DNA of 60,762 nt from Candidatus Erabacter solicola (GCA_003136895.1 PLDY01000063.1:1-60762), one strand, 5' to 3'; shown: positions 1-57,330, numbered from the stretch's first letter. Notes: generated by a model not told the origin, from the sequence alone. Translations and numbers: made by a program.

Positions 1-327
1 TTCGGCGGAGCCTGTTCTACCCACTTGGCGTCTCTCGACGTTTCGGGGCAGCGGCCTGTGTGTTGCGTAGACGCCTCGCCTATCGAGGTGACCTTCCTCA
101 GTATACCGACCCCGCGACGAAAGGGTCAACCCCAAATGGGGATAGGCAATAGGAGCTTCCAAGACGAGCCCACCCAGTTCCGGGCGCCGAGCAGCAAGGT
201 TTCAGTGCGCAGAGAGCGGTCGCGAGGCCGCAAAGCCGCGTAGCGCGCTGGGCCTCAAAGCCGGCTTAGCGTTGCTCCGATCGCGTTGCGCGTGGCGATT
301 GGCCCGGGCGGTCGTGGCATTTTTTCG
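1..327. other. No supported gene at the left edge
   Basis: I see no convincing gene here. The one forward reading frame at 25-243 is rich in Arg and Ser, has no Shine-Dalgarno sequence and resembles no family I know. The stretch lies 3' of the minus-strand cytochrome operon that ends at 328. It holds several short GC-rich repeats (AAAGCCG-type words near 228-270) but no hairpin followed by a T run that I would call a terminator. Confidence 0.5.
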
Positions 328-918
328 CTACTTGGCGATATTTAGAGTCTTACCGCGGCCATTCACGACGGTCAGCCCGGGACCGTTGGAAAAAATCGCT
401 ACGGGTGCGCTTTCGAAGGCCGGCGGGAGAGCATACGTCTCCATCTTTAGTGACGCAAGCGTAATCCGAATGAGAAATGATGGCATGAGTACGATCGGCA
501 TATCAACGGGCGGCGTCGCCACACCGAATATCACTCCTAGCGTTGTTTCGGCGGCCATAGTAATTTCGTCAGGTCCTGCCGGCCATATGAGATCATCTGC
601 GGGATGCCGCTCCGGAATAACGTACGGAGTTACGGGGCTTTTCGCTGGTACCCAGCCTTGAGTATCAGGTGACGCGCGTGGTAGATTCAGACGTGCCGGC
701 GGCACGCCGTCTCGCTCAATAACCGCAACGCCTGCCGAACTCAAGACTCCGACGCGGAACGGGTAAGCGAGAACAACATAGCGCCACATAAGCAATGTCG
801 AGATGGCAATCGACTCGATATCTTCCGTTGTTGTTGCGGTTCTCATTGCCGGCGCCACCATTGCGCAGGCGCCGGCAAGTATTTCGCTTCTAGTCATTCG
901 TTCGCCCCAGACCATCAT
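328..918 (-). CDS. Hypothetical protein in cytochrome operon
   Basis: A 196-residue protein that I do not recognise. Its start overlaps the end of the upstream triheme cytochrome gene by 4 bp (ATGA), so the two are probably translationally coupled and related in function. The N-terminal 50 residues are Ala- and Ile-rich with weak hydrophobic segments but no clean signal peptide. Residues 70-110 are Pro-rich. The C-terminal half contains alternating hydrophobic stretches that could be beta-strands. There is no CxxCH and no other metal motif. A role as accessory to the neighbouring cytochrome is inferred from coupling alone. Confidence 0.55.
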   Translation of the reverse strand: MMVWGERMTRSEILAGACAMVAPAMRTATTTEDIESIAISTLLMWRYVVLAYPFRVGVLSSAGVAVIERDGVPPARLNLPRASPDTQGWVPAKSPVTPYVIPERHPADDLIWPAGPDEITMAAETTLGVIFGVATPPVDMPIVLMPSFLIRITLASLKMETYALPPAFESAPVAIFSNGPGLTVVNGRGKTLNIAK

Positions 919-1964
919 TTTGCAGCCATGACGTCCTGCTCGCTCACCGCTCCGCCTTTGTTTCCCCAGGCAGTACGAATGAACGTTACGACGGCCGCGA
1001 TGTCACCGGCCGAGAGTTGGCCTTTCCACGACGGCATCATGCTGCGCCCGTGTTCGATGAGTTCGATTGCGGCGGCCGGATCATTATTGTTCACGAGCGA
1101 ATTGCCGGCGAGCGCCGGGAACGTCCCGTGCCCTCTGCCTTGTCCATTTGCTCCGTGACAGGCCGCGCATTTTGAGGCAAAGATCGAGGCGCCGACCGTG
1201 CTCAGAACCGAAGGTCCCGATGCGGCGACTTGCTGCTCGGTCACGCCGGGCGCTTTATTCGTCCAGGCCGAGCGAACATAGGTGGCGACCGCGGCGATAT
1301 CCGCATTCGAGAGCTGGCCTTTCCACGACGGCATCTTGCCCTTGAACGTGGCACCGTTTACCGAGAGCGCACCGGATCGCCCGTTCACGATCGTCGCGAT
1401 CATCTCTGTGGGATCCGAGGCGGCCACATGCGGGTTCCCGTTGAGCGGCGGGTAGGCGCTCGTGCCTGCGCCGTCGGCTTGATGGCAGGTCGCGCACTTG
1501 GCGGCGAAAATTTGGCCGCCGGTAAGTGCCACCGGGTAGCGCGCGGTAGTGACCTGCTCGGCCGTTACGATGGCAGCCCTGTTCATCCAGGCGGAACGGA
1601 CGTATGTGAGCACCGCGGCGATCTCGTCGTTTGAAAGGTGATCTTTCCAGGCGGGCATCGCACCGCTGAACGTTTTTCCGTTTACCTGGATCGGCCCGCT
1701 ACGGCCGTTTAGCACGGTCAGAATTAAATTCGAGGTGTCGGATGCCGTCACGGCGCCATTTCCGTTAAGCGGCGGATATGGCCCGGCACCCGCTCCGCTT
1801 ACCTGATGACATGCGGCACACTTCGTTGCGAAAATCGCTTTACCGTCGGGCGCCGGCGCACTCGCTGCGGCGCCTTCGCGCGCATGGAACGCCGATACAA
1901 CGGCGATGATAAACGCGCATACGAGCGCGGCTGTCATGTTGCGGCTCATGCGCTCAGCTAACAC
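915..1964 (-). CDS. Triheme c-type cytochrome, exported
   Basis: A 349-residue exported electron carrier made of three tandem cytochrome c domains of about 100 residues. An N-terminal hydrophobic signal (residues 10-30) is followed by three heme-binding motifs: CAACH at 49-53, CATCH at 157-161 and CAACH at 266-270. Each has a downstream MPxW segment whose Met (about 103, 211 and in the third repeat MMPSW) is the likely sixth heme ligand. The domains are close copies of one another, which suggests duplication within the gene. The start could also be ATG at 1949, since MSRNM begins a more typical signal peptide. The gene diverges from the CuA/cytochrome-porin pair across a 212-bp intergenic region. 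It could carry electrons between an outer-membrane donor or acceptor and the inner membrane. The partner is inferred. Confidence 0.9.
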   Translation of the reverse strand: MLAERMSRNMTAALVCAFIIAVVSAFHAREGAAASAPAPDGKAIFATKCAACHQVSGAGAGPYPPLNGNGAVTASDTSNLILTVLNGRSGPIQVNGKTFSGAMPAWKDHLSNDEIAAVLTYVRSAWMNRAAIVTAEQVTTARYPVALTGGQIFAAKCATCHQADGAGTSAYPPLNGNPHVAASDPTEMIATIVNGRSGALSVNGATFKGKMPSWKGQLSNADIAAVATYVRSAWTNKAPGVTEQQVAASGPSVLSTVGASIFASKCAACHGANGQGRGHGTFPALAGNSLVNNNDPAAAIELIEHGRSMMPSWKGQLSAGDIAAVVTFIRTAWGNKGGAVSEQDVMAAK

Positions 1965-2176
1965 GCGGGTGCGACAAAAGCCTGCGCGGCGTTATAAGCA
2001 AGCAAGCACGTCGTGTACAGTGCCGTACGCTTGAAAGGCCGTTTTCTGGGTAGAGCATAGCCAGGCGATGTCCACCAGCGTTGATATCGTTATGAGAAGA
2101 CGGATCACGCATCATGCAACTGTCGTTCGCACGACATTCTCACCGTCGTCGTACGCTGCGACTAAGGAGCCCAAAA

Positions 2177-2542
2177 ATGCGCGCATCCACAATTGTCTTT
2201 ATGGCGGGCCTTTTCGCGCTCGCGGTCCCCGCGTCGGCAGCGAATACTAAGAACAGCCCGCTCCCGATCGTCAACGTCGTTGCGACGGGGAATCAAAAGT
2301 TTGCACCGGATCATATCGTGTTGCACGTGGGCAAGCGTCAAACGGTGCGCTTCACGTCCACCGGCGGCGTGCACGGCGTCGTATCGAAAGATCTCGGTAT
2401 TCCCTCTACGATGATCGTGCCGGGCAAGCCGGTCGCCATCAGCATTACTCCGAAGAAAGCGGGGACCTACAAGATCCCGTGCTCGATCGTTTGCGGTCCC
2501 GGCCACGCGGACATGGCCCTCAGCATCGAAGTTAAGCCTTGA
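2177..2542 (+). CDS. Periplasmic CuA-type cupredoxin (COX2-like domain)
   Basis: A 121-residue exported protein. The start at 2177 is chosen because AAGGAG lies at 2164-2169 and a clean signal peptide follows (cleavage near Ala22). The mature part is a cupredoxin whose last third carries C102-x3-C106-x3-H110-x2-M113, with H66 upstream. This is the ligand set of the binuclear CuA centre of cytochrome oxidase subunit II. The two transmembrane helices of subunit II are missing and no oxidase gene is nearby, so it is probably a free electron carrier. The stop codon overlaps the TTG start of the cytochrome-porin gene (TTGA), implying coupled translation. Family assignment rests on the motif and is strong. 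The electron partner is inferred. Confidence 0.88.
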   Translation: MRASTIVFMAGLFALAVPASAANTKNSPLPIVNVVATGNQKFAPDHIVLHVGKRQTVRFTSTGGVHGVVSKDLGIPSTMIVPGKPVAISITPKKAGTYKIPCSIVCGPGHADMALSIEVKP

Positions 2543-3699
2543 CGCGCGCGCTGCGTGCATTCTTCGGTATTGCGTTCGCAGCCGCGGTCGCCGCCGTTAG
2601 CGGCGCTCCGGCGATCGCGATGCCGACCTTCGGTGAAGCCTACGGCATCAGTTGCGCGACGTGCCATACGGCGGTGCCGGCTTTGAATGCGTACGGCCGC
2701 TCCGTCCAGCGCTCGCAGTACGCGTTGCTCGACGCACAGATCCTCAAGAAGACCGCTCCGCTGTGGGTCGGCTACCAGGCGAACTACGACTCGCAAGCGG
2801 GGTCGCCGGATACGCACAAGGTCATTTTGGGAAATGTGGCTATTCATGCCGTCGGCCTCATCGGCGAGAATTGGTCGTATCACATACAACAATGGCTGGA
2901 GAACGACAACCAAGGCGGTGGCCTCGACACCGCTTGGGTGAGCTACAACAATGTCTTCAAGCACAACGGCTACATCGAGCTTGGCAAACTCGAGGTTCCT
3001 GCCCCATCGCCGTACAGCATGTGGCTTGAGATCGCGCCGTTCAACCTTCCCGAGGTCACGGTCGGCGAACACGCCTACCAGCTCGACGCGAACCGATGGG
3101 GTGCGAAAGCTGGATATAATCACGGCTCGCTGAGCCTTGACGCCGCGTATGTCGGCAGCGATGCGGACCTTAATGGTGCTTCGGACTTCGCGCCGGGCAA
3201 CGGCAAAGCGCTCCAGTATCGTGCAGCCTTCCAGCACACGAAGAGCCCGCTCGAGGTTGGGGTCTACGGCACAACCGGAACGTTCCCGATCTCCGACGGG
3301 TTGACCGACCGCTTCTCCGCGATCGCCGGCTATTTGCAGCGCGATCCGACACACGGAATTCCGGGCGTGCTGCTCGTCTACCAGAGCACCCACGACGGTT
3401 ATCCCATGGCGGGCGCAATCTCGCCGGCGAACGGGCGCGGATACACGCTCGATATCTACGAGCCGATTATCAGGGACAGAGTCGTCGTCGGGTTCCGGCG
3501 CGAGATGACCGACGATGGAATGGGCACGGTGAACCAGTACGGCAACGTCGACCTCACAGTCCAGATCGCAAAGTACCTCCGGATCTACGGTGAAGCCGCG
3601 CTATCCGGATCGAATGCCGGAAATGGCGTTGACCGTGTCGGCACGCCGGCGTGGCGCGCGTTCATCTGGTGGACGATGCCGGTGACGAAGGCTAGGTAG
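2539..3699 (+). CDS. Cyc2-like fused cytochrome-porin (monoheme + beta-barrel)
   Basis: A 386-residue protein starting at TTG inside the stop of the upstream gene. A signal peptide ends at Ala27, exposing MPTFGEAYGISCATCH with the heme motif at C39-C42-H43, followed by PALNAYGRS. This P-F-x4-G-x-x-CxxCH-x3-PxLNxxGR signature is the one shared by Cyc2-type outer-membrane cytochromes. The remaining 310 residues show the alternating polar/hydrophobic, Tyr/Gly/Asn-rich pattern of a beta-barrel. Known Cyc2 proteins oxidise extracellular Fe(II) and pass electrons inward through one heme plugging the barrel. Whether this shorter member uses iron or another donor is unknown. A role with the coupled CuA protein and the divergent triheme cytochrome is inferred. 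Confidence 0.75.
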   Translation: MTRALRAFFGIAFAAAVAAVSGAPAIAMPTFGEAYGISCATCHTAVPALNAYGRSVQRSQYALLDAQILKKTAPLWVGYQANYDSQAGSPDTHKVILGNVAIHAVGLIGENWSYHIQQWLENDNQGGGLDTAWVSYNNVFKHNGYIELGKLEVPAPSPYSMWLEIAPFNLPEVTVGEHAYQLDANRWGAKAGYNHGSLSLDAAYVGSDADLNGASDFAPGNGKALQYRAAFQHTKSPLEVGVYGTTGTFPISDGLTDRFSAIAGYLQRDPTHGIPGVLLVYQSTHDGYPMAGAISPANGRGYTLDIYEPIIRDRVVVGFRREMTDDGMGTVNQYGNVDLTVQIAKYLRIYGEAALSGSNAGNGVDRVGTPAWRAFIWWTMPVTKAR

Positions 3700-8181: not shown

Positions 8182-8985
8182 GTGTCTGGGCTGTTAAGCA
8201 CTCTCCCGACGTACTTCATCCCGCACGGCGGCGGTCCGTGTTTTTTCATGGACTGGCCGCAGGGCAATCCGTGGACGTCACTCGAGACGTGGCTCAAGGC
8301 CTTGCCCGGTGACGTCGGAGTTCGGCCGCGTGAATTGCTCGTTATCTCAGCGCACTGGGAAACGCGGCGGCCGACGCTGACGGCAAATCCAAAGCCGCCG
8401 CTCATCTACGATTACACGGGGTTTCCGCCTGAGACTTATTCGCTGCGGTACGATGTGCCGGGTTCGCCCGGCCTGGCCGCGCGCGTGAAGCGTCTGCTTG
8501 ACGAGGCAGGCTTCGCCGCCGCCGAAGATCCGCTGCGCGGACTCGATCACGGCGTCTTCGTCCCGTTCAAAGTTATCTATCCCGAGGCCGATATTCCACT
8601 CGTGCAGCTCTCACTCGAAGCCGGGTTCGATCCGGCAAGACATCTGGCAATCGGCGCCGCGCTCGCGCCGCTCCGTGACGAGGGCGTGCTGATCGTGGGA
8701 AGCGGCATGAGCTTCCACAACCTCGCGCGTTTTTTCGGCGGCGCAAGCGAGGACTCGGAGCGTTTCGATGCATGGCTGACCGCCGCAGCCACGAGCGAAC
8801 CGCAGGAGCGCTCGAGTCTGCTCGAGCGCTGGCATGAAGCTCCCTCAGCACGCGTGGCGCATCCCGAGGACGATCATCTCTTGCCGCTGCTCGTCGCGGC
8901 CGGCGCAGCGGGCCAAGACCGCGGGCGCCGGACATTTAGCGATACCGTCTACGGCAATCGCATCTCGGGTTATCGCTTCGGTTAA
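8182..8985 (+). CDS. LigB/DODA-type extradiol ring-cleavage dioxygenase
   Basis: A 267-residue non-heme iron enzyme of the class III extradiol dioxygenase family (YgiD/DOPA dioxygenase-like), about the usual length. Three conserved His segments are visible: FIPHGGGPCFF near the N terminus, VISAHWET around residue 55, and LDHGVFVPF around residue 120. A fourth, GSGMSFHN, lies in the second half. The first and third are the expected Fe ligands. Members open catecholic rings, but the substrate here cannot be told from sequence. GTG start one base after the transporter stop. Confidence 0.88.
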   Translation: MSGLLSTLPTYFIPHGGGPCFFMDWPQGNPWTSLETWLKALPGDVGVRPRELLVISAHWETRRPTLTANPKPPLIYDYTGFPPETYSLRYDVPGSPGLAARVKRLLDEAGFAAAEDPLRGLDHGVFVPFKVIYPEADIPLVQLSLEAGFDPARHLAIGAALAPLRDEGVLIVGSGMSFHNLARFFGGASEDSERFDAWLTAAATSEPQERSSLLERWHEAPSARVAHPEDDHLLPLLVAAGAAGQDRGRRTFSDTVYGNRISGYRFG

Positions 8986-28417: not shown

Positions 28418-29302
28418 ATCGAGACGAAAAAGCAAGCCACCTTCGAGATATCGCTTTCGCTCGCGGCCGCAATCGGCGGTACGCTCGCCGCCCTCGGCGG
28501 GTTCGTGATGGCGTATCAGAGCACGATGCGCGATGAAATCGAGAAGAGTCCGGCGATCCATCTCGCGTGCCGCCCCGAGTTCCGGCTGGCCGAACTGGCG
28601 CAGAACATCAAGCCGCCCGAAGACGTGTTGCTCCTGACGGAGAGCGGCGGTCAGTGGGTTCACGTCGGCGGAAGGTTACCCTCGGCCAAAAACGGCGACA
28701 CGCCGGCTGCCCCGGAGCCGTTCGCACGCTGCGAAGTTCGCAACTACGGCCGCTTACCGGTGCTCGATATCCGTCTTCCACTCCACGTGACGTTCTTCAC
28801 CGCGAACGTGCGCGAGGGCAAGCCGGCGCAAGCCGACGTCGATATCCCCGGACTCTCCGCCGATGGATCCTACGAATTCTCGATGATGAACGGCACCGCG
28901 CAGAACCTGACGTATGCCTTCGATCGCACGATCGAGTTGACCCGCGTCGACCGGCGCTCGGCGTCACCCGCGAATCTGTTCGCGGACCGGCGCCTCGCCG
29001 ATTTGGAAGCGCGTCCCGTGCGCGGAACCGTGGCGGAGGCGGCAGCGCCGGCGGCTCCGCTGACGATCGTGATCAAATCGTTTAAGTTCAAACCGGCACA
29101 GTTGCAGATCAAAGCCGGTCAAACCGTGACCTTTGTGAACGCCGACGACGAAGCGCACGCGCTCGTCACGGCCGATAAATCGTTTGCATCGGGCGCGATC
29201 GATCCGCGCGCCAGCTGGCGACACACCTTCACGAAGGCGGGCCGTTACGCGCTGCACTGCGACTACCATCCGTACATGCAGGCCGCCATCGTCGTCGACT
29301 GA
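28418..29302 (+). CDS. Membrane-anchored amicyanin/plastocyanin-like protein, probable AUC start
   Basis: A protein of about 294 residues. The C-terminal 80 residues are a type I copper domain with H247, C281, H284 and M287 (C-x2-H-x2-M, the short loop of amicyanin). The first helix (ISLSLAAAIGGTLAALGGFV) precedes the earliest ordinary start codon, GTG 28505. A strong GGAGG (28404-28408) lies 9 nt before ATC 28418, which begins I-E-T-K-K-Q just ahead of the helix. I therefore place the start at ATC. A central domain (residues 50-200) of unknown type separates anchor and cupredoxin. It probably shuttles single electrons at the outer face of the inner membrane. Confidence 0.8.
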   Translation: METKKQATFEISLSLAAAIGGTLAALGGFVMAYQSTMRDEIEKSPAIHLACRPEFRLAELAQNIKPPEDVLLLTESGGQWVHVGGRLPSAKNGDTPAAPEPFARCEVRNYGRLPVLDIRLPLHVTFFTANVREGKPAQADVDIPGLSADGSYEFSMMNGTAQNLTYAFDRTIELTRVDRRSASPANLFADRRLADLEARPVRGTVAEAAAPAAPLTIVIKSFKFKPAQLQIKAGQTVTFVNADDEAHALVTADKSFASGAIDPRASWRHTFTKAGRYALHCDYHPYMQAAIVVD

Positions 29303-37122: not shown

Positions 37123-37728
37123 TTAGTGTGGCGCCGCGACGTATGGGAACGCTGCTTGTGATTGAGTTCCACCTTGATTCAGCGTGACGTGCTGAGCCGT
37201 GAGGCAGAAGTTCTCTTTGTGGTCATCCGGGATGCTCGTGATGATCGACGGGATCGCATTTCCGAAGATTGCTGCGAGGTCGATCGTTATGACGTCATCG
37301 ACCAAGCCGCGTCCGCCGAATTTCCCGTTCACCGAGCCGGGGATAAAGGCCGCGGTGGCGCCACCGGTTTCGGTTCCGAGGTACGCAGCTGTGCCGGTCT
37401 GGGAAAGGTCGACCGTAATCTCGTTCGGGTAGAGTACGCCCTGTACGGCGTTTGAGATCCCGGCGCTGCGCCCTGCGACGTTGGTCATGAAGTTGAGGAT
37501 CTCTCCCTGTAACACGGGGTCCGCGTATGGAGAGCTGCGATTGGTTGCATCGTGGTTTACGAATTGCTCCATCGCTTCCTTGACAGCGGGCCGGGCCAGC
37601 AACTCCATCTGCTGATATGTTGGTGTGCTGCCGGCTCCGGGGATGTTCGCGCCATTGGTCGGTCCGCATCCGGCGAGCGCGAGCGTTCCGGCGAGCGCGA
37701 TGGTCAGGCTGACGAGCGATACTTTCAC
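37123..37728 (-). CDS. DUF4331-like lipoprotein
   Basis: A 201-residue lipoprotein with a textbook lipobox (LAGC, Cys20). The mature part matches the C-terminal half of DUF4331 proteins: YQQMELLARPAVKEAM, NEITVDLSQTG, AYLGTETGG and FGGRGLVDDVITIDL. Together with the next gene upstream it looks like DUF4331 split into two polypeptides. DUF4331 proteins are exported and of unknown function. Gap of 12 bp to the upstream gene and 3 bp to the TPR gene. Confidence 0.82.
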   Translation of the reverse strand: MKVSLVSLTIALAGTLALAGCGPTNGANIPGAGSTPTYQQMELLARPAVKEAMEQFVNHDATNRSSPYADPVLQGEILNFMTNVAGRSAGISNAVQGVLYPNEITVDLSQTGTAAYLGTETGGATAAFIPGSVNGKFGGRGLVDDVITIDLAAIFGNAIPSIITSIPDDHKENFCLTAQHVTLNQGGTQSQAAFPYVAAPH

Positions 37729-37740
37729 GTTATTGATCTC

Positions 37741-38571
37741 CTAGGTGCCCGTCGTGGTGCTGGTGGTCGCCCAGACGTGGATGATTTGGCTAGAGAAACC
37801 GGTCGTTAGCAACGACTTCGGAACTTCGAGAACGATCGAGAGGACGTCGAATCCCGGTGGTGCGGCCTGAGTGAGCGCGTTCTGCGATGCAGTCGTGCTG
37901 CAGGCATAACCGCCGCCGCCGGAGCCGGCTGCGCCGCCCGAGGTATCGCCGGCGTTGAAGCCGTTGAACGTAGGTGTCGCAGTACCAAGCGTGTTCCCGG
38001 TTCGCGGGTTGGAGAAGTTCCGATCCGGCAAGATCTTAAAGAACTGGAACAGGTCGAAGAAGAACGGGTCCGCACGCGGACCGACAAAGGCCTTGATGCC
38101 GTTGCCGAGCGTGGTCCCGGCGCTTTGATTGAACGCGAAGGAACCGCTTGCCGCAACGAACGTCGAATTCGTGCCGGTCGAGTTGGGTGCGGCCGGTCCG
38201 TACACGGTGACCTGTTGTACCGCGGGGGTCGTGCCGGCGGCGCTCACTTGAATGACCTGGTCTTCGGCCGCGGTCGTACCAACGGCGCCGTGCGTGATCT
38301 TAAACTGATACATGACCGCCGGGTCGAGGATTTCATTCGGAGCGGCGGCCGGGGTCAGCAGCGGATCGACGTTCATGATAAAGACTACCTTGGTCGGATC
38401 GGTGGGCGACGGGAAGACGTAGACGTCGGTAACGTCCGCTCGCGGACGGCTAACTACCGTCGGCGAGTCTTGGTGGTCCGATCCACGGACCGCATGGATG
38501 TTGTACAGAAACGCGGCTGTAACTAACGCGACGAGCGTTAGTGTAGTGCCCGCTATCCGCTTGAGTCTCAT
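37741..38571 (-). CDS. DUF4331 family exported protein (N-terminal type)
   Basis: A 276-residue exported protein. After the signal peptide comes GSDHQDSPTVVSRPRADVTD and VYVFPSPTDPTKVVFIMN, the N-terminal signature of DUF4331. Further family features are FVGPRADPFFFDLFQFF and VLSIVLEVPKSLL. A low-complexity Gly/Ser/Thr stretch with one Cys lies near 205-225. It starts 4 bp inside the NiCoT permease gene (ATGA). The acidic HxDSP head is well placed to bind a divalent cation, but that is conjecture. Confidence 0.86.
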   Translation of the reverse strand: MRLKRIAGTTLTLVALVTAAFLYNIHAVRGSDHQDSPTVVSRPRADVTDVYVFPSPTDPTKVVFIMNVDPLLTPAAAPNEILDPAVMYQFKITHGAVGTTAAEDQVIQVSAAGTTPAVQQVTVYGPAAPNSTGTNSTFVAASGSFAFNQSAGTTLGNGIKAFVGPRADPFFFDLFQFFKILPDRNFSNPRTGNTLGTATPTFNGFNAGDTSGGAAGSGGGGYACSTTASQNALTQAAPPGFDVLSIVLEVPKSLLTTGFSSQIIHVWATTSTTTGT

Positions 38572-39386
38572 GGGGTGTTCTCCTCACGGCGGTGGTTGAT
38601 GGCAACGATGGGGGCAAGACGAACAGGATGCGTTCTCGCGAATACGTATGCAAAGACGGCGAGCAACGCGAAGACGATGGCGCTGCTGACGGCGAGGTCG
38701 GGAAGCGGCGAGCGCCAGCCGATAAGTTGGGCAAGCTGATATCCAGCGACGGCGAGCGCCACGATACTAATCGAGACAATCCAGACGCGCGTCGTCTGTG
38801 GCAGACGGGACGAGCGGTCCGAGACGAGGCGGTGGACGAGCACGCTGTCGAGCGTATCGGTGACGATCATGCCGAGGCAAAACATGGCGCCGACGAACAC
38901 GGCGCCGAGGAGGCCCGCGTTCACGCCGAAGGCGATCGCGTAGGTTGCGATCTGACTCGACGTCTCAAAGCCGAATCCGAAGAGCAATCCGACCGGAACC
39001 GCGAGCCACGGACTCGTGCCCTCGCGCAAGGCCTTGGGCAGCAAGCGGGTCTTGACGCCTGAGATGCGGCCCGTCTCGTTTTGGTGCAGCTGGCGAAGAT
39101 TGGAAAGAGCGATGAGGACCAATACAGCGACGCTGATCCACGTTCCGATGGTCTCGATCAACTCGCCCCTGACTGCAATGCGTGTACCTAGCAGGCCGAC
39201 AATCGCGGCAATGGCAAGCACCATCACCGAGTGTCCGCCTGCGAACAGCGTACCGACGAAGCGGCTTGCGAGCGGACGTTTTTCGAACGAATTGCGCGTC
39301 AGGTTGTCGATCGCCGCCAAGTGGTCGGGATCGGCGCCGTGGCGCATGCCGAGGGCGAAGACTGCGAGGGCGCCAAGACCGATCAT
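38568..39386 (-). CDS. NiCoT-family nickel/cobalt permease (HoxN/NixA type)
   Basis: A 272-residue inner-membrane permease. The start is ATG 39386, overlapping the NicO stop; the open frame beyond it is a shadow of that gene. Helix 2 carries the family signature H16-x4-D21-H22 (RHGADPDHLAAIDN), the metal-selectivity motif. Further conserved blocks are FAGGHSVMV and FGFGFETSSQIATYA. Six to eight helices are predicted. NiCoT proteins import Ni(II) and/or Co(II) at high affinity, although a few have been linked to efflux. It is encoded directly after a second, unrelated Ni/Co permease. Confidence 0.93.
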   Translation of the reverse strand: MIGLGALAVFALGMRHGADPDHLAAIDNLTRNSFEKRPLASRFVGTLFAGGHSVMVLAIAAIVGLLGTRIAVRGELIETIGTWISVAVLVLIALSNLRQLHQNETGRISGVKTRLLPKALREGTSPWLAVPVGLLFGFGFETSSQIATYAIAFGVNAGLLGAVFVGAMFCLGMIVTDTLDSVLVHRLVSDRSSRLPQTTRVWIVSISIVALAVAGYQLAQLIGWRSPLPDLAVSSAIVFALLAVFAYVFARTHPVRLAPIVAINHRREENTP

Positions 39387-40951
39387 GCCGCCTGCTCTCT
39401 GTGACCGTGTGAGAAAGGGTGGGAGAATGCGTAGCCGGTGATCGCGATGGCAACGAGCGTGGTGATCAGGGCTGGTGATATCGAAAAGCCCTGCTGTGCC
39501 ACGCCCTGGCCGACCATGACGCTGCCGATCGTCGCAATAACGATGGCCGACACGAGAGGTCCGTAGCGCGCAACGCGATCGAATTGCGGTCGGGCCTGAA
39601 GCCATGAAGCGCCGCGTACCACGGCGATACCCGTTGCCGTTAGCGTCGCCGCCAAGCCAAAACTGAAGGCGACGATGACGAGGATGCCGTAGGCGACTTG
39701 ATCGAGGGCGACTGCGGCGAGCAGCACGACGAGCGCGGCCGGACAGGGTGCAATCCCGCCGCTCATGGCGGCCCAAACGGTCGAACTGAAACGCAATGGC
39801 GCGGTGCCGGGAAGCGCGTGCAGACGCGCGTGTTCGAGGTCGCCGTGCCCGTCATCGCCGTCATGCGCAGCGTGAATGTGATCGTGAGTGTGCGGGTGAG
39901 CCTGCGCGTGGTCGTGCACGTGAACGTGGCCGAATGGCTGACGTAACTGGAGTTGACGTTGCACGGCGCGTGCGCCGATCAACACGATAACGATGCCTGA
40001 TCCGAGCGTAATCCACGGGTAGATCGTCTCGGGTACGAAGTAACCTTTGAATATATTGATCGCAATGCCGAGCACCAAGACGCCGGCAGTGTGTGCGACG
40101 GTCAGTGCGCCGGCCAGGATCGAGGCCTGTCTTACGGTCGCACGCGCGCCGACCAGCGAGACGGCGAGCAGAGTCTTTCCATGGCCGGGTTCGAGAGCGT
40201 GAAGGGCACCGAGTCCGATCGCGATCAGAAGGGTCAAGAAAACCGTCCAAGGATTGCTGCTGCCGCGGGCCAGCATATCCGACAAAGCATTCGAGCGCGC
40301 CGCCGAAGTGGTCGGGGCTGACGCGAAGACGACCGGTTCTCCCTTGGCGTGAACGATCACTAACGCGCCGTTGATGTCGAGCTGAACGGAACGTAAGTTT
40401 CGCGGCGAAGCGAGTTCCGCGTTTGGATATGCGGTCAACTCTCGCGTAGGTTCCGTGTCGGCCCCCCCGACGACATCGATCCAGCCCAACCGGCCGTCAA
40501 ACGTGCGATCGGAAAAGTCAAGTCTCTGCCGCCCATTGGTGGGGGGCGGCAGCGCAGCGTGATAATCCGCGACAAAATACAACGTCGGTAGGCCACCGGC
40601 GCCCGGGCGTAGTCGCACGCTTGCCGTGTCTGGAACGAGCGAAACGTTCTTATCGCCGGACCGCACCTCCAATTGTGGTTGAATCGTGCGAAGTTCGTCC
40701 TCTGCCCAGGCAGCGAGTTGTGTGCTGCTCGGCTTTCCGCTTCTCTCAAGCCTCCGTAACTCGCCGAATGTCGGAATTTCCGCCATGTCGAGCACGTAGC
40801 GCACGCTTACTCGCCCGCTCCCTACGCGCAGTTTGGAGAGATGGTTGATCGTAAAATTACCGAGCGGATGCGCCGCGGCCGGCCGGACTGCCGCGATGGC
40901 AAAGCAAAGCCCAACTGCGATTCCGACGGAAAGCGACCGAAGTGTCTGCAT
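39383..40951 (-). CDS. NicO-family nickel/cobalt transporter with His-rich loop
   Basis: A 522-residue protein from ATG 40951 (a TTG at 41002 would add 17 residues but falls inside a predicted leader stem). A signal-like helix ends at AAAHPLGNF. A periplasmic domain of about 200 residues follows, then the NicO permease. ALHALEPGHGKTLLAVSLVG and GGIAPCPAALVVLLAAVAL are the conserved metal-path segments. Between them lies a cytoplasmic loop packed with His (HVHVHDHAQAHPHTHDH). Members such as RcnA export Ni/Co while others import. HPLGNFTINHL at the mature N terminus is typical of the long form. First gene of the five-gene operon. Confidence 0.92.
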   Translation of the reverse strand: MQTLRSLSVGIAVGLCFAIAAVRPAAAHPLGNFTINHLSKLRVGSGRVSVRYVLDMAEIPTFGELRRLERSGKPSSTQLAAWAEDELRTIQPQLEVRSGDKNVSLVPDTASVRLRPGAGGLPTLYFVADYHAALPPPTNGRQRLDFSDRTFDGRLGWIDVVGGADTEPTRELTAYPNAELASPRNLRSVQLDINGALVIVHAKGEPVVFASAPTTSAARSNALSDMLARGSSNPWTVFLTLLIAIGLGALHALEPGHGKTLLAVSLVGARATVRQASILAGALTVAHTAGVLVLGIAINIFKGYFVPETIYPWITLGSGIVIVLIGARAVQRQLQLRQPFGHVHVHDHAQAHPHTHDHIHAAHDGDDGHGDLEHARLHALPGTAPLRFSSTVWAAMSGGIAPCPAALVVLLAAVALDQVAYGILVIVAFSFGLAATLTATGIAVVRGASWLQARPQFDRVARYGPLVSAIVIATIGSVMVGQGVAQQGFSISPALITTLVAIAITGYAFSHPFSHGHREQAA

Positions 40952-40983
40952 CGTTACGGACTCAACGGCCACCAGCCGAATGC

Positions 40984-41063
40984 GGATTGGGCTTTGCGAC
41001 AATATTGTTTGTTCGAAGTGCGCCGGGTCAATACCGGGCGATTGGAGACAAAACCCAATCCGA
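40984..41063 (-). ncRNA. Predicted structured leader of the Ni/Co operon
   Basis: On the minus-strand RNA, GGATTGGGTTTTG (41063 down to 41051) pairs with CAAAGCCCAATCC (40996 down to 40984), giving 13 bp with a single G-U. On the opposite strand the same position is an A-C mismatch, so the structure suits only the operon's transcript. The 54 nt enclosed contain CCGG...CCGG and ACAATATTGT, which can form smaller stems. It lies 33 nt before the NicO ATG. It could be a metal-sensing riboswitch or a protein-binding leader. I could not match it to a known class by eye. Confidence 0.5.
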
Positions 41064-55917: not shown

Positions 55918-57330
55918 TCAAGGGGTTTTAATCGTTTCGGCCACAATGCTCATCTTCCCGATTTGGACTGGCGCCTGCACCTTGGGATGGGAGGGCGCGC
56001 CGTTGATGAGGATGCCGCGCGGGGCGAACGTCACGACGAGCGTCTTGCTGTTCCCCAATGCGGCTAGGATCGCGCGATTGATCTTGAACGCAAACACCGC
56101 CGGCCGAAACATGGATGGCATCGCGTCGCGTATGCCGGTGCCAAAGAGTACGACGTTACCGACGAAGCTCGGGCTGTTCGTATCAGACGCCGTGGTTGCC
56201 ACAGATCCGAGGTACGTCTCCCAGACGACCCCCGGCTGACGAGCGGCCTCGACGCCTTCGAGTTGTAAGTACACCGATTGCGCCGGGTTTTTCGCAAGTG
56301 CCAAGAGCTGTTCGCGAATATCCGGAGGGATTGGTATCGGAACGGATACCTGGTTGTCGCCGAGCGGTGGAATCGGCGGAAAAGTCATCGGAAAAAATCT
56401 GCGTATTGGTATGCAACACACGAATCTAGGGGAACAACTCTCTTGCGCCAACGAGGGTCCGTTTTGGTAGACGTAGTTGAGTTGCTGCGCGGCGTTGAGA
56501 ATCTGGCAGGCATTCATGTTGATCGGCTGCCCCTTCTCGTTGAAGAAGGTGTGGGATTTACCGGTCCATGTCGAGTCACCGACTGGATCGATTCCTCCAT
56601 AGCTCGCGCGCCACACTTGCCACAGGCGGTCGCAGTTGGCGTGGTGGAGGTAGAAGACCGGATCTTGCGCCGCGGTAAGGATTGAGGCCATCAACCCGCC
56701 GACGCCGACGTGGACGTTCCCATGGGGCGTGTTCTGGAAAATGTCATTCGCGCCGGTTTGGCCCGGCGTCGAGTAAACCGATGTCGCGAAGGCTCCGCTG
56801 TAGTCGACATCTCCTGCCGACAGCGATCCGGTGCCGTTGTTCATATTCGGGTGTCGGTTTGCAAGGTACAGCGAGCTACTTTGGTTCCGGAACATCGGTG
56901 GTAGATACCGTTCGCTTGGGGAGTCCCACGCCCAGAACGGCAACGACCAGCTGGGGTCGCCGGACTTGCTTCGAACGATCCGCTCGAACCAGTACAGATA
57001 CATGCGATGCCACGACCAAAACCATTCCGTGTTGTGTTCGCAGGTGTTCCACGACTGCAGCGCTTGTGACATGGTCGTCCCGTGAATCGCGGCTTGATAG
57101 GCCCAGCTGGTTGGATCGGTCGACGGGAGGGCCTGCATTTTTGTAACTGCCTTTGCGTACGATACGATTTGGGAACTCGCGGCATTGAGGCTCGCGATGT
57201 CCTGACGCACGAACGGTGCGGCAAGGGCCGGCTCCCCCGCAAAGAGCGGTTGACATGCTGCGGCTACCACGGCAGACTTGCCGACCACGGCCAAGAATCG
57301 GTGACGGTTCAGTTCGTACCTATTCGCCAT
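55918..57330 (-). CDS. Tyrosinase/polyphenol oxidase, type 3 copper
   Basis: A 470-residue exported oxidase. CuA ligands are H83 (AAIHG), H99 (CEHN) and H108 (WSWHRMYLYWFE). CuB ligands are H203 and H207 (TPHGNVH) and one of H229/H230 (FYLHHANCDRLW). C97 is two residues before H99, the spacing that forms a Cys-His thioether in Neurospora tyrosinase and molluscan haemocyanin. The leader NRHRFLAVVG resembles a Tat signal with one Arg of the pair changed (R-H-R). A C-terminal beta domain from about 320 may shield the active site. It oxidises phenols to quinones. No caddie-like chaperone gene is evident. Confidence 0.92.
   Translation of the reverse strand: MANRYELNRHRFLAVVGKSAVVAAACQPLFAGEPALAAPFVRQDIASLNAASSQIVSYAKAVTKMQALPSTDPTSWAYQAAIHGTTMSQALQSWNTCEHNTEWFWSWHRMYLYWFERIVRSKSGDPSWSLPFWAWDSPSERYLPPMFRNQSSSLYLANRHPNMNNGTGSLSAGDVDYSGAFATSVYSTPGQTGANDIFQNTPHGNVHVGVGGLMASILTAAQDPVFYLHHANCDRLWQVWRASYGGIDPVGDSTWTGKSHTFFNEKGQPINMNACQILNAAQQLNYVYQNGPSLAQESCSPRFVCCIPIRRFFPMTFPPIPPLGDNQVSVPIPIPPDIREQLLALAKNPAQSVYLQLEGVEAARQPGVVWETYLGSVATTASDTNSPSFVGNVVLFGTGIRDAMPSMFRPAVFAFKINRAILAALGNSKTLVVTFAPRGILINGAPSHPKVQAPVQIGKMSIVAETIKTP

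Follow-up and report, generated by a model that had tools for sequence, protein, structure and literature searches.

A Cyc2-like cytochrome-porin paired with a stand-alone CuA protein: a candidate electron-uptake conduit in Eremiobacterota

Introduction

Cyc2 proteins of Mariprofundus and Acidithiobacillus are outer-membrane cytochrome-porins for which a strict definition has been given: the signature AXPXFAR[Q/K][T/Y], PXL four amino acids after a CXXCH motif, one heme, 16 strands, and a length of at least 365 amino acids (PMC8406198). In Acidithiobacillus, the electrons of Cyc2 go to rusticyanin, and the mononuclear copper protein AcoP assists the oxidase (PMC4059628; PMC10654088). Here, we describe a locus from Candidatus Erabacter solicola in which the gene of a Cyc2-like cytochrome-porin overlaps that of a stand-alone CuA protein and in which a triheme cytochrome c is encoded divergently. 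It is located on a stretch of 60,762 nucleotides (GCA_003136895.1, PLDY01000063.1:1-60762), which is referred to as the window. The three genes, at positions 915–1964 (minus strand, P0001, triheme cytochrome), 2177–2542 (plus strand, P0002, CuA protein), and 2539–3699 (plus strand, P0003, cytochrome-porin), were confirmed where an initial annotation of the sequence had placed them. We consider it fairly probable (about 0.72) that the locus encodes an electron-uptake conduit with the CuA protein as periplasmic acceptor, which ultimately feeds a heme-copper oxidase.

Among the closest described arrangements is the rus operon of Acidithiobacillus, in which an outer-membrane cytochrome-porin passes electrons via small periplasmic copper proteins to a cytochrome oxidase. 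However, rusticyanin is a mononuclear type 1 copper protein and AcoP a mononuclear green one with the site C-x6-H-x4-M (PMC4059628), and neither a free CuA protein nor a porin fusion has been described for this operon. Copper proteins have also been implicated in extracellular Fe oxidation in the case of the Sideroxydans cupredoxin cluster Slit_1812-1818 (PMC12016527; PMC5566968) and of the PcoAB model, which comprises a periplasmic multicopper oxidase plus a porin (PMC5566968), but these proteins are not of the CuA type and have no link to a heme-bearing porin. Within the phylum of our host, a Cyc2-like protein of one metagenome-assembled genome (MAG) has been suggested for Fe(II) oxidation; the passages on it describe no partner, fusion, or gene neighborhood (PMC8357290). 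The initial annotation was aware of no described pairing of Cyc2 with a stand-alone CuA carrier. Among 5.4 million open papers, with subscription papers and preprints outside the scope, neither a CuA partner nor a CuA fusion of a cytochrome-porin was found, whereas copper partners of Cyc2 as such are already known; it is the CuA type that appears to be new.

The host, a soil bacterium (genome of 2.85 Mb, 91.6% complete), belongs to the Eremiobacterota (WPS-2, Vulcanimicrobiota). Soil, peat, and permafrost commonly harbor this poorly known phylum, of which almost no cultures exist.

Results and Discussion

The stand-alone CuA protein P0002

P0002 is made as a precursor of 121 amino acids; its N-terminus resembles a signal peptide, and it contains the motif GVHG as well as CSIVCGPGHADM. 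The protein matches the Pfam families Cupredoxin_1 (3e-10) and COX2 (24.0 bits), the latter above the cut-off of 22 in the profile check that had been proposed for it, and its best matches in the PDB are Thermus and engineered CuA domains (E 4e-6). All five side-chain ligands of CuA are present, H66, C102, C106, H110, and M113 (codons spanning positions 2372–2515, plus strand), and they are invariant in all 56 stand-alone or fused homologs. The resulting pattern C-x3-C-x3-H-x2-M in a cupredoxin fold is that of a CuA site and not the mononuclear site of AcoP. The CuA domain of oxidase subunit II, as in Thermus ba3, shares the cupredoxin fold and the ligands H, C-x3-C, H, and M, but P0002 has no oxidase-type membrane anchor and is encoded with, or in relatives fused to, an outer-membrane porin. 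P0002 does not qualify as an oxidase subunit II, since it is secreted and has no subunit I beside it in the window; the true CoxB genes are located separately in the host genome. Judged from its sequence, P0002 is predicted to be a secreted, stand-alone CuA domain with a binuclear site, which is presumably metal-loaded. The stand-alone CuA carrier postulated initially is supported in this way, and the natural fusions described below strengthen the assignment.

An AHP-type sequence was found at the predicted signal cleavage site of 30 of the 56 CuA homologs (L094–L149; L numbers denote loci), the protein of the window being without it. In the AHP-type homologs, the histidine may become the mature N-terminus and serve as an extra copper ligand. 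A second CuA gene (CHLPCGPGHDSM) is located on another contig of the host genome (G000, C136; L066:5386-6139, minus strand) and is followed by a C-terminal cytochrome-porin remnant without the heme region; either this copy has decayed or the assembly, which contains an N there, is in error.

The predicted copper binding by P0002 could also be read in another way. The protein might be a copper chaperone or store that metallates oxidase subunit II, with the porin as a copper entry pore and the heme in a structural or regulatory role. The AHP-type N-termini, predicted for more than half of the relatives, could bind copper, but a full and invariant CuA ligand set is a signature of electron transfer, and we regard the chaperone function as unlikely; the fusions and the gene neighborhoods bear on it as well.

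Linkage of the CuA and cytochrome-porin genes and natural fusions

Relatives were gathered by a scan for the porin family across 84,980 species genomes, which returned 64 loci. All those with a taxon in the title, on which the assignment of the host rests, belong to Candidatus Eremiobacterota, Eremiobacteria, or Eremiobacter, or to WPS-2. The closest relatives of the cytochrome-porin (72%–80% identity) mostly come from permafrost-palsa MAGs, and identities of 40%–48% were found across the class. In five genomes from the phylum's other classes, neither the porin nor the CuA gene was present. The census of porin genes (n = 64) consists of 63 genes from relatives and the one of the window; a CuA fusion (L078) and a cytochrome c fusion (L020) from the search for relatives are additional to it. 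The CuA gene is located directly upstream of 41 of the 64 porin genes, with a 4-nt overlap in 30 of these cases. Apart from 12 genes considered below, the others are fused to CuA (three) or to cytochrome c (two), have CuA elsewhere in the locus (five), or are cut off (one). Because of the sequence identity across the class combined with the conserved adjacency, the locus is far beyond chance: the CuA/porin pair consists of real genes and is conserved through the class. The linkage expected from the initial annotation therefore holds in most related genomes.

Four open reading frames from three genomes (L078, L121, L123, and L146) encode porin and CuA in a single chain, all with uninterrupted frames. 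The order is cytochrome, barrel, low-complexity linker, and CuA at the C-terminus. The C-termini of the fused proteins match either Cupredoxin_1/COX2 or, in the cytochrome c fusions, Cytochrome_CBB3. A model of a CuA fusion consists of a 16-strand barrel (residues 77–377), a disordered linker (378–416), and a beta sandwich (419–507); a Foldseek search with this model retrieved nothing but porins and missed the small domain at the C-terminus. The phylogenetic tree groups the four CuA fusions in a single clade (support 99/93), whose sister is the cytochrome c fusion of L020, a sequence that recurs in L019 and may be mis-binned in either one, while L143 and L147 represent a separate cytochrome c fusion. 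The CuA-fusion clade is the result of one event, and the second cytochrome c fusion arose separately.

Both ends of an outer-membrane barrel lie in the periplasm, which puts the fused domain at the position of a periplasmic acceptor. A role in electron transfer is most strongly indicated by the fact that sister proteins carry CuA and cytochrome c at the same C-terminal position. Such an exchange fits electron transfer far better than copper delivery by a chaperone.

Two further observations concern the fused proteins. The same porin-cytochrome c fusion and neighborhood recur in L019 and L020, two assemblies assigned to different families; this duplication is probably due to contamination or mis-binning, otherwise to recent transfer. 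Directly 3' of porin-CuA fusion genes, a further small CuA-like protein (CAVYCGIGHG[ST]M) is encoded (L121:9518-9865, L123:9542-9883, L146:9196-9546, and L148:5069-5416).

The cytochrome-porin P0003 and its relation to Cyc2

P0003 (386 amino acids) starts with TTG, its gene overlapping the CuA stop codon by 4 nt. Its N-terminal region holds a single CXXCH motif, which lies behind a signal peptide assigned by eye. This motif, CATCH (residues 39–43, positions 2653–2667, plus strand), stands between AMPTFGEAY on its N-terminal and PAL on its C-terminal side; the consensus of the porin family is AMPxFA[QK]AY-GxxCxxCHxxxPxLNxYGR. Sequence searches of Pfam, NCBIfam, and PDB with P0003 gave no match. 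Using 44 family members as input, AlphaFold2 predicted exactly 16 long strands after a short helical heme segment (predicted local distance difference test, pLDDT, 79.9; predicted template modeling score, pTM, 0.78). The barrel covers residues 75–381 (positions 2761–3681, plus strand), and in many strands the hydrophobicity alternates between inward and outward positions. The top Foldseek matches of the model are general trimeric porins (E 4e-11, template modeling score about 0.6). As for the barrel with a luminal heme that had been proposed initially, the predicted barrel closes as expected, whereas the heme segment was modelled at low confidence.

Besides the heme ligand, three histidines are conserved among the 44 homologs (codons spanning positions 2845–3072, plus strand): H103 in 42, H115 in 43, and H178 in all of them. 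H103 (strand 2) and H115 (strand 3) are on polar strand faces, and H178 is part of a GEH motif that links strands 5 and 6, at the place of the constriction loop of general porins. Based on the model, these residues may line the lumen and bind the donor or the heme. They could bind copper as well, which would also be in accordance with a copper entry pore.

A tblastn search of plasmids with P0003 led to a single meaningful relative, a Cyc2-family protein of Methylocystis, which gave entry to the Cyc2 set. This protein carries the signature AVPSFARQT and aligns with P0003 in BLASTP (3e-12). A profile of six Cyc2-family plasmid proteins retrieved P0003 from its own genome (E 3.9e-8), and its hhalign comparison with the 44-member family resulted in a probability of 96.6% (E 4.8e-10, 269 columns). 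P0003 shares with Cyc2 the signal sequence, the single N-terminal CXXCH, the PXL motif (CATCH-TAV-PAL), the 16 strands, and the length of at least 365 amino acids (PMC8406198). In contrast, AMPTFGEAY deviates from AXPXFAR[Q/K][T/Y]. Since homology and the other features are present and this signature is not, we term P0003 Cyc2-like: by sequence, it is a Cyc2 homolog outside Cyc2 in the strict sense, and the corresponding description in the initial annotation applies with this restriction. The family of P0003 further differs from Cyc2 in having its own pre-heme signature, its own candidate luminal histidines, and a CuA partner instead of c-type cytochromes. A c-type cytochrome gene was located nearby in all six Cyc2-family plasmid loci examined.

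The triheme cytochrome c P0001

P0001 (349 amino acids) is either secreted or anchored N-terminally and contains three CXXCH motifs in three class I cytochrome c domains (Pfam Cytochrom_C, E 4e-44). Its gene is separated from the CuA gene by a divergent intergenic region of 212 bp (positions 1965–2176), in which no convincing conserved operator was found. The same layout is present in L087, L091, L092, and L093; in L090, the distance of the divergent triheme gene is larger by about 2 kb, and in L089 and L132 this gene is on the same strand as the porin. Altogether, about 20 of the 64 related loci encode a homolog of P0001 close to the porin, and in one group of palsa MAGs the triheme cytochrome is mostly the only partner of the porin. 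It accompanies 13 of 19 porin genes without CuA and 8 of 44 with CuA (Fisher p 3e-4), a difference to be taken as a hint only, as shared ancestry is ignored. The porin has in the triheme cytochrome another partner, which is often an alternative to CuA and takes its place in several lineages. Consequently, CuA is not simply a replacement for the usual periplasmic cytochromes, as the initial annotation had suggested.

The initial annotation had spoken of a four-gene order, the fourth gene presumably being the frame at 328–918 (minus strand). A unit of four genes was rejected, as this frame matches no domain and none of the 64 related loci contains a relative of it.

Copper partners of paralogous cytochrome-porins

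Two further cytochrome-porins are encoded in the host genome, each beside a copper protein. The first (372 amino acids, AMPLFAQRYHLDCGACH; contig C134, L068:7421-9031, plus strand) follows a copper protein of the plastocyanin/azurin family, a blue-copper pairing that parallels Cyc2 and rusticyanin. The second (583 amino acids; contig C141, L067:5491-8670, minus strand) carries a cytochrome c domain towards its C-terminus, with an additional extension behind it, and is directly followed by a multicopper oxidase, which parallels the PcoAB model. Examination of a targeted set of relatives showed the blue-copper pairing again in L185–L188, L190, and L192 (in L191, the genes are on the same contig but not adjacent) and the multicopper oxidase pairing in L174–L183. 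In this phylum, a copper partner thus seems to be usual for cytochrome-porins, each paralog having its own.

Multicopper oxidases are a type of enzyme that also serves to detoxify copper and iron, so that the heme-porin might instead be a sensor or a protein of peroxide protection with copper proteins as detoxification partners, and no energy would be conserved. The constant one-to-one assignment of partner to paralog, the fusions, and the linkage to oxidase genes make such a function very improbable.

Proposed electron transfer and terminal oxidases

If P0003 is an electron-uptake conduit, a donor entering or touching the barrel would pass an electron to its monoheme cytochrome. From there, the electron would be transferred on the periplasmic side to the soluble CuA protein of the same operon and, alongside or instead of it, to the triheme cytochrome c of the divergent gene. 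Either carrier would then pass it on to CuA in a heme-copper oxidase, of the ba3 type where this is linked in relatives, and finally O2 would be reduced. The path from the cell surface to the inner membrane, which the initial annotation had regarded as possible, would thereby be complete. We infer the direction of electron flow, the order from CuA to oxidase, the donor, and the redox chemistry. By analogy to Cyc2, Fe(II) would be the default guess for the donor; humic or phenolic reductants and other metals are possible.

Of the 64 related loci, 14 contain genes for a ba3-type CoxB-CoxA, and the linked CoxA matches the Thermus ba3 protein over its full length (1e-114). This linkage is not expected by chance, because the flank examined per locus, about 16 kb, corresponds to less than 1% of a genome. 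The host genome holds other heme-copper oxidases, and a homolog of the one on contig C127 is encoded directly upstream of the pair in L099. The association with ba3 oxidase genes would also suit a chaperone for subunit II, but most pair-bearing loci have no oxidase gene nearby.

Outer-membrane cytochrome conduits can run both ways, and the direction is not fixed by the sequence. Periplasmic electrons might thus be exported to an external acceptor, in extracellular respiration or reductive mineral attack. This is quite unlikely, as the linked enzymes are O2 reductases and P0003 carries one heme, unlike the multiheme conduits used for export. Moreover, CuA sites and Cyc2 hemes have a high potential, which suits delivery to O2.

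Several results weigh against electron uptake into a heme-copper oxidase via CuA. CuA is absent from the locus of 12 of the 64 porin genes, and the pLDDT block means of the N-terminal heme segment of P0003 fall to 40–57. A ba3 oxidase of the linked type was not found in the assembly of the host genome. For RuBisCO, the host genome gave one weak match only, a frame of 391 amino acids that is probably RuBisCO-like; without a convincing RuBisCO, lithoautotrophy is not indicated. No hydrogenase was found in the host genome either. The cultured relative V. alpinus showed no lithotrophic growth with the donors tested, among which Fe(II) was not reported (PMC9758169). Finally, nothing was found that fixes the direction or the donor.

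As a more far-reaching idea, to which we would give slightly less than even odds, the cytochrome-porins of the phylum could be phylum-specific, copper-partnered conduits, related to Cyc2 yet outside it, with one copper protein per paralog. The heme-barrel-CuA chains would then feed ba3 oxidases directly, and the luminal histidines of strands 2 and 3 and the constriction loop would bind the donor, not necessarily iron.

Other features of the window

An M-box (magnesium) riboswitch aptamer (60.3 bits) is located at positions 1–94 (minus strand) and is cut by the window edge. Two DUF4331 proteins (37123–38571, minus strand) adjoin a tetratricopeptide repeat protein and a NicO-family transporter (39383–41002). 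Further copper or phenol chemistry in the window is represented by a protein with a tyrosinase/polyphenol oxidase domain (55918–57330, minus strand), a plastocyanin-like cupredoxin (28505–29302), and a LigB dioxygenase (8182–8985).

Conclusions

To our knowledge, CuA is otherwise known chiefly from terminal oxidases and N2O reductase. If the proposed function is correct, the locus would encode the first outer-membrane conduit known to us with a CuA centre, free or fused, as electron acceptor. The single chains of heme, barrel, and CuA would offer small constructs for the direct measurement of electron transfer across the outer membrane. The family of P0003 escapes searches that rely on the strict Cyc2 signature. 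For the phylum Eremiobacterota, the locus would provide a concrete and testable route of electron entry.

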